This document shows, one piece after another, positions 45,960-52,367 of a stretch of 64,000 nucleotides of DNA (position 1 is its first letter; the number at the start of each line of letters is the position of its first letter). A program made the translations under genes and the position numbers. The notes under the pieces are model-generated. The model was not told where the DNA came from and searched no databases. It saw only the letters and a list, made by a program, of their open reading frames with translations. Origin of the DNA: Beijerinckiaceae bacterium. Lineage in GTDB: Bacteria; Pseudomonadota; Alphaproteobacteria; Rhizobiales; Beijerinckiaceae. The stretch is from assembly GCA_030684835.1 (NCBI GenBank), contig JAUXWZ010000055.1, forward strand, positions 1 to 64,000, in the 5' to 3' direction.

Positions 45960-46676
45960 TCAGAAGCGCGTCGTCAGATCGATCAGCCATGCGGGCGCGG
46001 CCTGCGTCAGCACGGTCTCAATTATCTTGTCGAGCCCGGTGAGGATTGCGACGCCGACGAGAACGAGCAGCGCGCCCATGATCGCCTTGCCCGCCTTGCC
46101 GCCGGTCATCAGCTTGCCGCGCCAGCGCATAATCGTTTCGCGCGATGCGAAGCCCAAAAGCAGCAAGGGCAGGGCCGCGCCGACGCCAAAGGCGAGCATG
46201 GTGAGCGACACTTGGCCAAGGTTTTCGCCGCGCGCCGCCAGAAGCGACGCGGCGCCAAGTGTGGGGCCAACACAGGGCGTCCATACGGCGCCGAGCAGCA
46301 GCCCGACGCCAAACTGGCCGCTCAGGCCCGAGGTCGAGAAATTACCAAACCTGTGTTCGGTCCAGTTCGCGGCGGGGCCCGCGGCTGCCGCCAGGCGCAC
46401 CTGCATCGCGGGAACCAGCAGCACCGCGCCAATCACGATCATCAACACAGCTGCGGCGATGCGGAACACATCCGCGTCGAGCCCCAGCGCGAAGCCGAAC
46501 AGGGCGATGAAAATGCCAATGGCCGTGAATGAAATCGCAAGGCCAGCCGCCAGCGCCGCAGGGCCCATCCTGTGCTCGCCCGTGGCCGCTGCCAGCACCA
46601 TTGGCACAAGCGGCAGCACACACGGCGAAAGCAGCGACAGGACGCCAGCGAGAAACGCTAAACCGATGGCAGCCAT
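45960..46676 (-). CDS. CcdA/DsbD-like thiol electron transporter
   Basis: A 238-residue membrane protein with about six helices, the CcdA (short DsbD-beta) fold. The redox cysteines are Cys19 in LSPCVLPLVP and Cys135 in WTPCVGPTLG. It carries electrons from cytoplasmic thioredoxin across the membrane for cytochrome c maturation or periplasmic thiol reduction. The adjacent exported thioredoxin, 14 bp upstream, is the obvious partner. Confidence 0.92.
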   Translation of the reverse strand: MAAIGLAFLAGVLSLLSPCVLPLVPMVLAAATGEHRMGPAALAAGLAISFTAIGIFIALFGFALGLDADVFRIAAAVLMIVIGAVLLVPAMQVRLAAAAGPAANWTEHRFGNFSTSGLSGQFGVGLLLGAVWTPCVGPTLGAASLLAARGENLGQVSLTMLAFGVGAALPLLLLGFASRETIMRWRGKLMTGGKAGKAIMGALLVLVGVAILTGLDKIIETVLTQAAPAWLIDLTTRF

Positions 46677-46690
46677 GCGTTATGACCTGC

Positions 46691-47089
46691 TCAGAGTGCG
46701 AGACGCATCAGATCTTCGATCGCCTTTGGGTCGGTGATGCCGACGGCCCGCCCAGTCTCTTTCGCGCCCTTGAACGTGATGAGCGTGGACTGGCGTGTGA
46801 CGCGCAGCGCCTTTAGCTCGTTCTTCTGGTTGTCGAAGTCGAGGCTGAAAACTTCCAGGTCCTTGAACTCGGACTTCTTCAGAAGCCCTTTGATAATCGG
46901 CTCCTGCCTCTTGCACGTCGGGCACCAGGGCGCGGTGACATCAATGAAAATCGACTTGCCTTCGGCCTTGGCCTTTTCAAACGCCTTCATTTCGAAGGGC
47001 CAGGCCTCCTGGGCGGACGCGGGCGAAAATAGTGCTGCGGCGCCAAGAGCGACAGCGGCTGCAATAAATGAACGGCGATTGATCGACAT
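46691..47089 (-). CDS. Exported thioredoxin-fold protein
   Basis: A 132-residue protein with a twin-arginine-like N-terminus (NRRSFIAAAVALGAAALF, cleavage near ASAQ at 24-27) and a thioredoxin domain with the redox motif Trp55-Cys56-Pro-Thr-Cys59 (APWCPTCKRQ). The conserved cis-Pro region is seen as TRQSTLITF without a classic cis-Pro before Thr. It pairs with the CcdA-like transporter directly downstream; together they probably form a periplasmic reductase couple. Confidence 0.9.
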   Translation of the reverse strand: MSINRRSFIAAAVALGAAALFSPASAQEAWPFEMKAFEKAKAEGKSIFIDVTAPWCPTCKRQEPIIKGLLKKSEFKDLEVFSLDFDNQKNELKALRVTRQSTLITFKGAKETGRAVGITDPKAIEDLMRLAL

Positions 47090-47203: not shown

Positions 47204-47626
47204 TTATCCGACTATCTCATTTCCGGCGAACCACTGAGCGATTTCCACCGCCGCCGTCTCCGGCGCGTCCGAGCCGTGGACCGAGTTTTCGCCGACCGAC
47301 AGGGCAAAATCCTTGCGGATCGTGCCGGCGTCGGCGTTGGCGGGGTTCGTCGCGCCCATGATGTCACGATACTTCTTGATGGCGCCTTCGCCTTCCAGAA
47401 CCTGCACGACCACCGGTCCGGCGGTCATCGTCTCGACCAGTTCGCCGAAGAAGGGGCGCTCACGATGCACGCCGTAGAAGGTCTCGGCCTGTTCGCGGGT
47501 CATCTGGACGCGCTTTTGGGCGATGATGCGAAGACCTGCTTGCTCGATCTTGGCGTTAACGGCGCCGGTCAGATTGCGGCGGGTCGCGTCGGGCTTGATA
47601 ATGGAAAACGTGCGTTCGAGCGCCAT
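47204..47626 (-). CDS. ndk: Nucleoside diphosphate kinase
   Basis: A 140-residue enzyme that balances nucleoside triphosphates. The phosphorylated His117 lies in [14 protein letters not shown] and the ATP site in [12 protein letters not shown]. The ATG at 47626 is chosen from homology with the family start [13 protein letters not shown]. It diverges from oxyR. Confidence 0.97.
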
Positions 47627-47771
47627 GGCGTTGGACCTGCGTATGGATTGAGGAGCGCGGCTTATAGCGGGGCCTTCCGCGCCGCACAAGGTACGCCCGG
47701 CGCATCCCCGACATTGTTATCGCCTATGCCGGATGGTATTCTGATTGTCTGCAGCGATTGGAATCTTCCGC

Positions 47772-48689
47772 ATGAACCTCCGTGATCTCCAATATGTCGT
47801 CGCAGTCGCGGATCAAGCCCATTTTGGACACGCGGCGCAGGCATGCAACGTCAGCCAACCGACTCTCTCTGGGCAAATCGCCAAGCTGGAGCTGGAACTG
47901 GGTATCGAGATATTCGGCCGGGTTGGGCGCACGATCCGCCCAACCGAGGCGGGTGAGCAGATCATCGCCCATGCCCGCCGCGCCATTGCCGCGGCGCAGG
48001 ACATTGTGGACGCCGCCCGCGCGAACCGCGATCCGTTGAGCGGGCGCCTCCGCCTCGGCATTATCCCCACAATCGCGCCTTATCTCATGCCGTATGTTTT
48101 GCCGCTGACGGCGGAGAAGCTGCCGAACGCGCCACTTGTTCTGGTGGAGGACACGACCGGTAATATCGTGCCGCAAGTCATCGAGGGTAAACTGGACGCT
48201 GCAATCCTGGCGACCAATGAAGATGCGCCGGAGCTGGTGTCGATTGATCTTTACGACGAGCCATTCTTCGTTGCGATGCCTGCTAACCATCCGATGGTGG
48301 CGCAAAAGGAAATCAGGGTTGAGGACATCGATCCCAAGACGCTTCTGCTGCTGACAGATGGGCACTGCCTGCGCGAGCAGGCGCTGGAATTATGCAGCCA
48401 TCCGCAGGTGGGTGGCGGCATGATGGCGGACATGCGCGCAACGAGTCTCGAAACGTTGCTTCATCTGACTGCCGCAGGGCAGGGCGTCACGCTGTTGCCG
48501 CAACTCGCCATTGAGTGCGGCCGCGCCGATACGGACCGACTCGCTACGCGACCACTGGCGGGGGACCATGCCTTTCGGCGGGTGCGCCTTGTGCATCGCA
48601 GGCGCAGTCCCCGCACCAAGGCGTTGATCGAGCTAGCGCGAATTATTCGCATGTCGTTGCCGGCTGGGGTGCGCAGCCTTAAGGGGTAA
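47772..48689 (+). CDS. oxyR: Peroxide sensor OxyR (LysR family)
   Basis: A 305-residue LysR-type regulator. The winged helix-turn-helix is at about residues 4-62 (AAQACNVSQPTLSGQIAKLE). The redox pair falls at exactly Cys199 and Cys208 (LLTDGHCLREQALELC), the same numbers as in E. coli OxyR, so it is a peroxide sensor and not just a LysR relative. It diverges from ndk and is followed 9 bp after its stop by an OxyR box in front of the rubrerythrin gene. Confidence 0.95.
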   Translation: MNLRDLQYVVAVADQAHFGHAAQACNVSQPTLSGQIAKLELELGIEIFGRVGRTIRPTEAGEQIIAHARRAIAAAQDIVDAARANRDPLSGRLRLGIIPTIAPYLMPYVLPLTAEKLPNAPLVLVEDTTGNIVPQVIEGKLDAAILATNEDAPELVSIDLYDEPFFVAMPANHPMVAQKEIRVEDIDPKTLLLLTDGHCLREQALELCSHPQVGGGMMADMRATSLETLLHLTAAGQGVTLLPQLAIECGRADTDRLATRPLAGDHAFRRVRLVHRRRSPRTKALIELARIIRMSLPAGVRSLKG

Positions 48690-48697
48690 GCTACGCG

Positions 48698-48734
48698 ATA
48701 GGCCTGCTCTATCATTGTCATTGGTGCAGCCTAT
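48698..48734 (+). promoter_or_regulatory. OxyR box upstream of the rubrerythrin gene
   Basis: The four tetramers ATAG (48698), CTAT (48709), ATTG (48720) and CTAT (48731) are each separated by exactly 7 bases, matching the OxyR tetramer consensus ATAG-N7-CTAT-N7-ATAG-N7-CTAT at 15 of 16 positions. The last CTAT would coincide with the -35 element for a possible -10 TAGAAT at 48754-48759 (17-base spacer), the geometry of OxyR-activated promoters. The site lies directly after oxyR and before 48904. Confidence 0.8.
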
Positions 48735-48903
48735 CAAGGCTCGCGCGGCTGCCTAGAATTAGAACAAATATAAGGTTGGCGTCGGTCCGCGCGTTGACAA
48801 AGCACGCGCGCGAACCTTCATCGGTCATGGTCGACGCGGCACGTGCCTGATGCATGTTTCGCAGTCGCGGATCGATCTCAAGAAGTCGTTCAGGAGGTGA
48901 GCT

Positions 48904-49320
48904 ATGGCTCTCAAGGGCAGCAAGACCGAAGACAACCTCAAGGCCGCGTTCGCGGGCGAATCCCAGGCGAACCGCCGTTATCTGTATTTCGCACAGAAGG
49001 CAGACGTTGAAGGCTACAACGATGTCGCCTCCGTGTTCCGCTCCACCGCCGAAGGCGAGACGGGCCACGCGCACGGCCATCTCGAGTATCTCGAGGAATG
49101 CGGCGATCCCGCCACCGGCCTGCCGATGGGCAAGACCGACCTCAACCTTAAGGCTTCTATCGCTGGCGAGACGCATGAGTACACCGACATGTACCCCGGC
49201 ATGGCTCGCTCGGCCCGCGAAGAGGGCTTTGAGGAAATCGCCGACTGGTTCGAGACCCTCGCCAAGGCCGAGCGTTCGCACGCTGGCCGCTTCCAGCGCG
49301 CTCTGGACGAAATGAAGTAA
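48904..49320 (+). CDS. Rubrerythrin (ferritin-like, no rubredoxin domain)
   Basis: A 138-residue four-helix di-iron protein. Iron ligands are Glu19 (FAGES), Glu52 and His55 (ETGH), Glu89 and Glu92 (AGETHEY), and Glu123 and His126 (ERSH). The C-terminal rubredoxin domain of classical rubrerythrin is missing, so another protein must donate electrons for H2O2 reduction. The ATG has an AGGAGGTGAGCT site just before it. It is controlled by the OxyR box and followed by a terminator, then by two likely partner genes. Confidence 0.93.
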
Positions 49321-49337
49321 GACTTCGCACGCTTATC

Positions 49338-49373
49338 GGCCGGCGTGAGGATGATCCCGCGCCGGCCTTTTTT
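49338..49373 (+). terminator. Terminator between rubrerythrin and the Fe-S gene
   Basis: GGCCGGCG (49338-49345) pairs with CGCCGGCC (49360-49367), followed directly by six T. This is a standard intrinsic terminator. It would make rubrerythrin mRNA more abundant than mRNA for the two following genes, unless they have their own promoter, which I do not see in the short gap. Confidence 0.75.
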
Positions 49374-49411
49374 ATCCTGCGCACAAAAAGCTTCAGACAG
49401 TGAGGGCGGCA

Positions 49412-50758
49412 ATGAGAGAGGGCAGTCTTGAAGCGCCAACCCGGCATCCGCTGGATTGGCAGAACCCCGACTTTTACGACGATGCGAAGCTCGACGCGGA
49501 ATTGCGCCGCGTGTTCGACATCTGCCACGGGTGCAGGCGCTGCTTCAATCTTTGCGATTCATTCCCGCAATTGTTTGACCTCATCGACGAGTCCAAGACG
49601 GGCGAACTCGACTCGGTGTCGAGTGACGGTTTCAAGCCCATCGTGGACGCCTGCACGCTCTGCGACATGTGCTTCATGACGAAGTGCCCCTACGTGCCGC
49701 CGCATGAATTTAATCTCGATTTCCCGCATTTGATGCTGCGCTATCGCGCCGCGGAGGCAAAGAAGAACGAGACTTCCTTCGTCGACACGCAGCTCGCGCA
49801 GACTGACCGCAACGCCAAGATCGCTGCGCCGCTTGCGCCGATCGCCAACTGGGCGACGCGAACATCCAGCAAATTTACGCGCGGCCTGCTTGAGAAAGTG
49901 GCCGACATTGATGCGCGCGCCGAACTGCCGACCTATGCAAGCTCGCCGCTGACAAGTCAGGCCAGGGCGACGACGCCGGAAATTAATCGCGAGGCGCCGG
50001 GCTTTGGCCGCAAGGCCGTGATCTACGCCACGTGTTTCAACAATTATAACGATCCTGATGTAGGCCTCGCCGCGCGCGCCGTGCTGGCGAAAAACGGCGT
50101 CGAGACCGAGGTTGTTCACCCCCATTGTTGCGGCATGCCGATGCTGGAGCAGGGCAAGATCGCGGAAGTCGCGAAGTCGGCCAAGATTGTCGCTGACGCG
50201 CTCGTGCCGTGGATCGAAAAAGGCTACGACGTCATCGCGCTCGTGCCGTCGTGCTCACTGATGATGAAGTTCGAGTGGCCACTGATCGTTACCGACGACG
50301 CCAACGTGAAAAAGCTGGCGCAGAACACGTTCGACATCAGCGAATACATTGTCGATATCGCGAAGAAGAACGGCCTAGCGCCCGGCCTGTCGCCGGTGCC
50401 CGGCGGCGTGACGCTGCATATCGCATGTCACTCTCGCGCGCAGAACATGGGCCAGAAAGCCACGGAAATGCTGAAGCTTCTGCCCGAAGCCGATGTGCAG
50501 GTGATCGAGCGGTGCTCGGGCCACGGCGGCGCGTGGGGCTTCAAGAAGGGCAATTTTGACATCGCGTTGAAGGTCGGCAAGCCCGTCGCGCGAACCACCG
50601 CGCAGGGCGGCAAGGCGTATGTCACATCCGAATGTCCGCTCGCCGGCGTTCATATCGGGCAGGGCGTTGCGGCGCTGGGCGGCGACCAGCCAAAGCCTGC
50701 CGTCGTGAAGCATCCGATTCAGATCTTCGCGCGTAGTTACGGCATCAATCCTGAGTGA
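49412..50758 (+). CDS. GlpC-like Fe-S / CCG-domain protein
   Basis: A 448-residue protein. Two 4Fe-4S motifs near residues 33-95 are CHGCRRCFNLC (CX2CX2CX3C) and CTLCDMCFMTKC (CX2CX2CX4C). Then follow two cysteine-rich CCG-type domains: HPHCCGMPMLEQGK is typical, while the second has a single Cys in IERCSGHGGAWG. The layout is that of GlpC and heterodisulfide-reductase subunits, which pass electrons between flavin, thiol or quinone partners. No GlpA/GlpB genes are near, so its partner is more likely the rubrerythrin. The ATG at 49412 has GAGGGCGGCA; the GTG at 49400 is an alternative. Confidence 0.88.
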   Translation: MREGSLEAPTRHPLDWQNPDFYDDAKLDAELRRVFDICHGCRRCFNLCDSFPQLFDLIDESKTGELDSVSSDGFKPIVDACTLCDMCFMTKCPYVPPHEFNLDFPHLMLRYRAAEAKKNETSFVDTQLAQTDRNAKIAAPLAPIANWATRTSSKFTRGLLEKVADIDARAELPTYASSPLTSQARATTPEINREAPGFGRKAVIYATCFNNYNDPDVGLAARAVLAKNGVETEVVHPHCCGMPMLEQGKIAEVAKSAKIVADALVPWIEKGYDVIALVPSCSLMMKFEWPLIVTDDANVKKLAQNTFDISEYIVDIAKKNGLAPGLSPVPGGVTLHIACHSRAQNMGQKATEMLKLLPEADVQVIERCSGHGGAWGFKKGNFDIALKVGKPVARTTAQGGKAYVTSECPLAGVHIGQGVAALGGDQPKPAVVKHPIQIFARSYGINPE

Positions 50759-50799
50759 AGGCGCTAGCGTCTTCACGTCATTCAAGCCCGGGAAACACG

Positions 50800-51393
50800 A
50801 TGATGGCCAACAAGCACCAGATCACAGCAGCCGACATCCTGCCGCTCCCTGAATACGTTAAGGGGCGTGCGGAGACGCGCAAGAAAATGGCGGCGATCAA
50901 GCGCGACCGCCGTGTGGACGTTGGCTCGCACGTGACGTTTTACTTTGAAAACTACGACACGATGTGGATGCAGGTTCAGGAGATGCTCTACATCGAGAAG
51001 GGCGGCGACGAGCAGGTTGTCGAGGAATTGAAGGCGTACAATCCGCTTGTGCCGCAGGGCCAGGAGCTTTGCGCAACTTTCATGATCGAGATCGACGACC
51101 CCGAGCGCCGCAAGCGCATCCTTGGCCGTCTCGGCGGCATCGAGGAGACAGCGTTCATGACAGTGAACGGTGAGAAAGTCATGGGGACCGCTGAAGAAGA
51201 TCAGGACCGCACAACGGCGGAAGGCAAGGCTTCTTCCGTTCAGTTCGTGCATTTCAAGTTCACGCCGGCGCAGATCGAGGCTTTCAAAAAGCCTGGCGCG
51301 CAGGCGGTTGTTGGTTTCTCACATCCCAATTATTCGCACATGTCGGTGCTGCCGGAAAACGTCCGCGCCGCGCTTGCCGCTGATTTCGACTAG
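50800..51393 (+). CDS. DUF3501 family protein
   Basis: A 197-residue soluble protein of unknown function, recognised by ITAADILPLPEYVKGR, KRDRRVDVGSHVTFYFEN, MLYIEKGGDEQVVEEL and the ending GFSHPNYSHMSVLPENVR. DUF3501 proteins recur next to rubrerythrin and GlpC-like genes. The ATG at 50800 (a second lies at 50803) has GGGAAACACG upstream; the longer frame from 50755 overlaps the end of the Fe-S gene and has no ribosome site. No cofactor motif is visible. Confidence 0.82.
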   Translation: MMANKHQITAADILPLPEYVKGRAETRKKMAAIKRDRRVDVGSHVTFYFENYDTMWMQVQEMLYIEKGGDEQVVEELKAYNPLVPQGQELCATFMIEIDDPERRKRILGRLGGIEETAFMTVNGEKVMGTAEEDQDRTTAEGKASSVQFVHFKFTPAQIEAFKKPGAQAVVGFSHPNYSHMSVLPENVRAALAADFD

Positions 51394-51431
51394 TTAGAAT
51401 CCTGTCTCTGCGTCGTATGTTTTGGGCCCCT

Positions 51432-52367
51432 TCATCGTTTCGATGGCGGGCCCCGACTGTTTGCGCCATGCGCAAGGCCCGCCGCAAAGGCGAAGAACGA
51501 ATACGCGAGGATGCCGGCAAGCGCCGCGCCTGACCAGACAATGCGCGGGTCCGTCAATTCCAGCGCAAAAATGACGACCGGCCCCAGCGCGCGCAACACT
51601 TGCGCTGTGAGCGGCTTCGTCATTGATATGCCGACCTGAAGCGCATATAGCGGCAGCGCAATCAAAGGCGTAGCAAGGGCCGCGAGCCAAAGCCAGCCTT
51701 GCGCGTCCGCCACGCCTGTTGGCCGCGCGCCGGACAGCACGACAGTAAACGCAATGACGGAGATGAGCAGATAGCGCGCGCCTGTCACCGCGTTGGCGCC
51801 GATGCCGTGCTCGTTGAGCCGCTTGGCCAGAAGGTGGCTTAACGTGATCGAAACGCCGCTCACCGTGAGCGCGGCCAATCCGGTCGCCGCGTTGGCGAGG
51901 GAATAGTCGAGCCGCCCGGACTCGCCGTAAAGGACGACGCCGCCCAGAAAAGCCATTGCAAGCGCAAGGCCTGCGTAACAGAGGTTTTCAAGCCGGCCGC
52001 GTCGCTCGGCTCCGGCTAGCGTGGCGCCAATCATCGCCAGAGCGACGACTGTGAGCGGCCCAAAGCCGCTATGAAGCGCGTTCAGCACCGAGGGCTGCAC
52101 GAACTTCAGGCCGAAGAAGTAGGACGTCCAGGCCAGCGCCGTCGTCAAATTCATCGCCAGCACGAGAGCCCCGAATTTGCGCAGCTTACGTAGGCCCGCT
52201 CGATCCCGCCAAAGCGCGATCCCGCCGAAAATAAGCGCCATCAGCGGAAAGGTCGCCAGGATAACGGCGAAGACATCCACGCTGCGAAAGACCTGCGAGA
52301 GGTAAACGTCGCGCAGCGCCTGCGACAGCACAAACGCGCCGATCAGAATGGGTCCCAAGTGAGTCAT
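51432..52367 (-). CDS. DMT/EamA-type transporter
   Basis: A 311-residue protein with about ten hydrophobic helices in the EamA pattern: ALRDVYLSQVFRSVDVFAVI in the first repeat and VTGARYLLISVIAFTVVLSG in the second. The C-terminal tail is short and basic (SRGPPSKR). The substrate is unknown. It is divergent from the ABC-F gene and convergent with DUF3501, with no function shared by context. Confidence 0.85.
   Translation of the reverse strand: MTHLGPILIGAFVLSQALRDVYLSQVFRSVDVFAVILATFPLMALIFGGIALWRDRAGLRKLRKFGALVLAMNLTTALAWTSYFFGLKFVQPSVLNALHSGFGPLTVVALAMIGATLAGAERRGRLENLCYAGLALAMAFLGGVVLYGESGRLDYSLANAATGLAALTVSGVSITLSHLLAKRLNEHGIGANAVTGARYLLISVIAFTVVLSGARPTGVADAQGWLWLAALATPLIALPLYALQVGISMTKPLTAQVLRALGPVVIFALELTDPRIVWSGAALAGILAYSFFAFAAGLAHGANSRGPPSKR

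Follow-up and report, generated by a model that had tools for sequence, protein, structure and literature searches.

A predicted OxyR operator ahead of an aerobic-type rubrerythrin operon in a Beijerinckiaceae bacterium

Results

The site at 48698-48734 of the 64-kb stretch of DNA that was analysed (the window) very probably serves as operator in an OxyR-activated promoter that drives a rubrerythrin (rbr)-RFO-DUF3501 operon. The OxyR box itself is known biology; what is new is its use for an rbr operon, its apparent exchange with an Irr-like site, and a split of half-site spacings between promoters. The features concerned are as follows:

47713-47758, + strand: putative oxyR operator, half-sites ATTG-N7-CTAT (47713-47727) and ATTG-N7-CGAT (47744-47758), 31 nt start to start
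47714-47742, + strand: predicted sigma70-like oxyR promoter between the half-sites, TTGTTA (47714-47719), 17 nt, TATTCT (47737-47742)
47772-48689, + strand: oxyR, 305 aa, with Cys199 and Cys208 (domain, model and cysteine checks)
48698-48734, + strand: predicted activation-type OxyR box with half-sites at 48698-48712 and 48720-48734, their starts 22 nt apart
48754-48759, + strand: alternative -10, TAGAAT, 19 nt after the box (choice of the first-pass annotation)
48758-48774, + strand: weak Irr-like palindrome, ATTAGAACAAATATAAG, 10/14 letters of the Irr box consensus
48760-48765, + strand: preferred candidate -10, TAGAAC, 25 nt after the box, chosen from the lineage pattern
48794-48799, + strand: TTGACA, kept in the genus at about 59 nt from the box, possible second promoter
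48904-49320, + strand: rubrerythrin (rbr), 138 aa, single-domain, aerobic type
49400-50758, + strand: RFO, a GlpC-like Fe-S oxidoreductase with CCG domain, start uncertain, name from PMC5114695
50800-51393, + strand: DUF3501 protein (domain match)

The product of 47772-48689 contains both domains of a LysR-type regulator (the HTH, PF00126, and the substrate-binding domain, PF03466) and has cysteines at positions 25, 199, 208 and 249. Cys199 and Cys208, which the first-pass annotation had named, are in place, and each is matched by a cysteine in the solved C199-type OxyR chain u100034; the best solved-structure relatives of the protein are OxyR chains. The peroxide-pocket residues of OxyR, Thr100, Thr129, His198 and Arg201, are also present, as read from alignments to solved chains. 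The best model is PRK11151 (E. coli-type OxyR) at 251.8 bits, below the NCBI cut-off of 329, which is a naming threshold and not a defining trait, so we name the protein an OxyR of alphaproteobacterial type. With the next-best match in the same genome only 25% identical, it is likely the sole OxyR encoded there. Near oxyR, past a nucleoside diphosphate kinase gene, 45960-47089 (- strand) encodes a membrane protein similar to DsbD as well as a thioredoxin-like protein, the latter with a Tat-signal match under the Pfam cut-off.

The gene set expected after the box, i.e., rubrerythrin, a GlpC-like protein and DUF3501, was identified in full. A domain search found no rubredoxin domain in the 138-aa rubrerythrin, which, together with the adjoining RFO and DUF3501 genes, places it in the aerobic type. 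RNA families gave 0 matches at the gathering threshold across 47600-51500.

The box starts 8 nt past the oxyR stop and reads ATAG-N7-CTAT-N7-ATTG-N7-CTAT, so that four tetramers of the ATAG type, each 7 nt from the next, precede a predicted promoter; the near-perfect match that had been claimed is exact in position and strand (48698-48734, +), with 15 of 16 consensus letters. No second site with up to three mismatches occurs in the window, and only 3 of 100 shuffles of the window gave any match at that level. A genome scan for the consensus, proposed earlier as a check, returned the box at 48698 as the best match in 4.93 Mb, with a sole companion at three mismatches. At this looseness the reversed control pattern gave 3 matches per strand across the genome vs 2 for the true pattern, and therefore only the one-mismatch site stands out genome-wide.

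Conservation was assessed across 51 genomes of the genus, of which 41 contain OxyR (E ≤ 1e-55) and 27 rbr (E ≤ 1e-20). One rbr locus per genome was retained (n = 27 including the window, the second fragment of G214 being dropped), and oxyR lies directly upstream of rbr in 19 of them. A comparison across related genomes had been named as a possible refutation of the box, which survives it: the core, AT.G-N7-C.AT twice (12 letters, defined after inspection of the genus boxes), scores at least 10/12 at 22 of the 27 loci, the window counted, and 18 of these 22 score at least 12 on the original 16-letter consensus. Tested against 500 dinucleotide shuffles of the intergenic stretch (or of its final 300 nt), the core reached p ≤ 0.010 and the 16-letter consensus p ≤ 0.002 at 18 of the 27 loci. 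G215, G119, G212 and G221 have weak boxes (10-11/16) that run across the stop codon of oxyR, outside the shuffle-tested stretch. Five loci (G238, G236, G235, G218 and G211) lack both the box and an upstream oxyR.

Among the first 100 columns of an alignment of 11 box loci, none is invariant outside the core; all 11 were chosen with a core of 12/12, so that the invariant core letters there are by selection. In the closest pair (G000 and G239) the tetramers are identical at 16/16 positions, the spacers at 14/21 and the remainder at 173/202, and the pair taken alone lends little support to conservation of the box.

In three genomes (G139, G209 and G213) oxyR is not the gene directly upstream of rbr, and rbr keeps the box all the same. 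OxyR was not found in G209, an 82% complete genome. A single contig of G213 carries both genes, about 2.4 kb from each other, and the box sits at rbr, not after oxyR; the stretch following oxyR in G213 and in G139 has no box (core 7-8/12). These unlinked loci disfavor a box that serves oxyR, as a 3' end or antisense element, instead of rbr, and make that reading very improbable even though the box follows the oxyR stop so closely. Likewise, the degeneracy of LysR-type sites could invite the view that the box is a chance match to a loose consensus; the window shuffles, the rarity of the site in the window and in the genome, its conservation and the p-values at the genus loci rule this out to the point that we give it scarcely any credence.

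Two genomes of the genus, G237 and G226 (loci L151 and L173), have the box 9-10 nt after oxyR and then a same-strand katG match, which in G226 is short and at a contig end; rbr was not detected in either by the genus search (E ≤ 1e-20). In one frame, the leaders after the box at these two loci translate into short peptides that resemble each other. Thus, the box appears to go with a peroxidase gene, either rbr or, in these two genomes, katG. A scan of 54 oxyR loci also found 13 in which a box with a core of 11-12/12 lies upstream of oxyR. Twelve of the 13 were used for further counts (L141 was checked separately), and katG is divergent from oxyR in 8 of the 12 (L126, L128, L131, L134, L140, L143, L161 and L163). 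The source genome (completeness 96%) has no detected PF00199 catalase and contains two KatG genes. A box with a 12/12 core occurs at one of these (L200, on contig 152), and the fetched locus of the other (L199) has no box above 8/12.

A TA step lies 22-25 nt after 17 of the 22 genus rbr boxes (1.57 expected), 9 of 10 other rbr boxes (1.22 expected) and 12 of 12 oxyR-upstream boxes read toward katG (1.38 expected), in a distance range chosen after inspection of the boxes. It is absent at this distance in the genus boxes of G209, G213, G199, G168 and G210 and in L141. The first-pass annotation had placed the -10 at 48754 with the last tetramer overlapping its -35, but at that distance from the box the closest relative, G239, has GGGATT in place of the window's TAGAAT, and this -35/-10 placement needs revising. 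A -10 at 22-25 nt, TAGAAC in the window, seems to fit the lineage better.

A second motif, TTGAC, is found 56-65 nt after the box at 18 of the 22 genus rbr boxes and at 59 nt in both tandem katG loci, and the genus keeps the TTGACA at about 59 nt ahead of either gene. This conserved motif may mark a second promoter. That the main promoter uses TTGACA at 48794-48799 as its -35, with OxyR acting from about -114 or modulating a basal promoter, or perhaps with two promoters in use, would agree with these counts and is nevertheless rather unlikely: TTGAC at 56-65 nt is missing at all 10 other rbr boxes and all 12 oxyR-upstream boxes, where the TA step at 22-25 nt is mostly kept, and the window has no near-consensus -10 after TTGACA. 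A simple promoter scan of 48500-51500 found 0 promoters, of this kind or of the preferred kind.

The oxyR promoter has half-sites of the same form at a different pitch. A half-site pair at 30-32 nt occurs at 25 of 31 genus oxyR loci (exactly 31 nt in 22), drawn from 31 of the 41 OxyR-bearing genus genomes, and at 16 of 22 other family oxyR loci, not counting one family locus that had no upstream DNA; mononucleotide shuffles give 0.000 expected pairs at this distance per set. Six of the 31 genus loci lack the pair, among them that of the close relative G181, which has one half-site. Counting back 22 nt from the second half-site, a middle one scores at least 5/6 in 11 of the 16 other-family pairs; of the 25 genus pairs, 2 reach that level, each beside a divergent katG, and the other 23 do not. 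L145, also with divergent katG, has the pair and only 3/6 at the middle position.

In the reverse view, a third half-site at +9 from the box is exact at 12 of 12 oxyR-upstream boxes, the source genome's own katG and L141 (chance of an exact site, 0.0039), and is below 5/6 at 22/22 genus rbr boxes, 10/10 other rbr boxes and 2/2 tandem katG boxes. The window's rbr promoter therefore has the 22-nt pair only, the oxyR promoter the 31-nt pair only, and the own katG (L200:2126-2171) three overlapping half-sites at 9, 22 and 31 nt from one another. The oxyR-box-rbr coupling that lacks the third half-site also occurs in gammaproteobacterial loci.

Reduced OxyR (or its C199S form) is described in PMC2881104 and PMC2225504 as contacting two groove pairs one helical turn apart, and oxidised OxyR as contacting four consecutive grooves. 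Taken with these contact patterns, the spacings make the oxyR promoter look repression-only, the rbr promoter activation-only, and the one katG a full switch. The site at 47713-47758 accordingly looks like an autorepression operator for reduced OxyR.

Outside the genus, rbr is mostly preceded by another element. Of 199 family genomes surveyed, 38 matched rbr; 32 of the 38 belong to other genera, and loci from 24 of these 32, representing five genera, were examined. An Irr-type palindrome of at least 12/14 precedes rbr at 22 of the 24 (shuffle p ≤ 0.01), the remaining two having 10-11/14 (p = 0.056 and 0.016), and oxyR was found in the fetched flank at 0 of the 24. The consensus used, TTTAGAANNNTTCTAAA, is that of the Irr box (ICE). 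These palindromes are predicted to bind Irr. Given the element at 22 of 24 other-genus loci, OxyR control of rbr looks like a regulator exchange within the family, from an Irr-like site to an OxyR box.

The window's own palindrome matches TTTAGAANNNTTCTAAA at 10/14 (shuffle p = 0.030), those of G239 (p = 0.000) and G209 at 12/14, and the more distant genus members (clade 2) score at chance level. The source genome encodes an Irr protein above the NCBI cut-offs (L197). Dual control, with activation by OxyR and a continued action of Irr at a remnant iron-control element over the -10, would draw on the 12/14 palindromes of G239 and G209, on the encoded Irr and on the element of the other genera; we consider it unlikely in view of the weak window site and of clade 2. 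Moreover, a TTTAGAA stretch similar to the palindrome is found before katG of G237 too, and the Irr-like element may therefore be core promoter in part. A firm Irr remnant in the window was not adopted for this reason.

Among 80 named rbr loci, oxyR lies within 500 nt upstream in five, and these have a core of at least 11 in 5/5 and a TTAGA-N5-TCTAA palindrome (at least 9/10) in 0/5. The other 75 have such a core in 6 and the palindrome in 49, and 20 of the 80 have neither. The five comprise L011, which is from the same genus and shares its box with genus member G231, three loci with gammaproteobacterial names (L029, L083 and L088) and L039, named only "Proteobacteria". In a tree of 58 OxyRs, the four from outside the genus stand apart from those of the family (99/99; the root is for drawing only), and the state "linked to rbr" (17 genus rows and 4 others) requires at least six changes. 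The oxyR-rbr coupling has thus probably changed hands more than once.

Discussion

The mechanism that we propose for the preferred reading, an OxyR-activated rbr promoter, builds on sequence, conservation, spacings and gene order, from which we infer binding, redox states, activation and enzyme function. Peroxide would oxidise OxyR at Cys199 and Cys208, and the oxidised tetramer would fill the four tetramers of the box, which has a half-site pitch of 22 nt and lies immediately ahead of the -35 region. Bound OxyR would then recruit RNA polymerase to the -10 about 25 nt downstream of the box, and the operon would supply a rubrerythrin peroxidase together with a protein presumed to be its electron donor. 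In its reduced form, OxyR is not expected to hold the rbr promoter, as the extra half-site giving a 31-nt pitch is missing there, whereas the 31-nt pair at the oxyR promoter would restrain oxyR. The resulting prediction is peroxide induction of the rbr operon through OxyR.

The wider proposal is a split two-state operator, i.e., a 31-nt reduced-only site at oxyR, a 22-nt oxidised-only site at rbr and a complete switch at katG, together with the passage of rbr from an Irr-type regulator to OxyR. We offer this combination tentatively, at somewhat less than even confidence.

If the operator assignment is true, aerobic-type rubrerythrin joins the OxyR regulon beside katG, in a genome without detected PF00199 catalase. 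The regulation of this type of rubrerythrin is little described in the literature surveyed. Among the matches listed from the open-licence PMC literature, no title or abstract opening claims OxyR control of rubrerythrin, and a search of the same literature for Beijerinckiaceae and rubrerythrin gave nothing pertinent. The spacing split provides candidate activation-only and repression-only OxyR sites for testing how redox state selects DNA; natural one-state operators, if they are such, would allow a direct test of the OxyR redox-shift model.

The aerobic-type RBR-RFO-DUF3501 cluster of PMC5114695 has the same gene content as the operon here and likewise lacks the rubredoxin domain. In the main text of that paper the terms regulat*, LysR, promoter and PerR each occur 0 times; the cluster here is tied to OxyR.

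In Burkholderia pseudomallei, bpss1837-1839 place a rubrerythrin beside a "ferredoxin" gene in the H2O2 response (PMC4175613), comparable to rbr-RFO here, and bpss1837 and bpss1838 would correspond to DUF3501 and RFO. These genes differ from rbr here in that they are given as sigmaE-dependent, OxyR being named only for katG and ahpC in the portion of that paper drawn on.

The rubrerythrin-like mbfA / blr7895, bound by Irr (PMC3413700), is likewise a case in alphaproteobacteria of a regulator joining iron and peroxide defence. It is another gene under another regulator than here, and resembles the palindrome picture for the other genera of the family.

The closest parallel in operator layout is E. 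coli oxyR-oxyS, where the relevant part of PMC5002191 describes three repeats (IR1, IR2 and IR3) centred at -66, -44 and -35. The half-sites have the same form as those here and the same spacings, 22 nt (IR1-IR2) and 31 nt (IR1-IR3). Unlike that operator, the window has the 31-nt spacing only at oxyR and the 22-nt spacing only at rbr, and it is the three-half-site layout of the source genome's own katG (L200) that is the one described for E. coli oxyR-oxyS.
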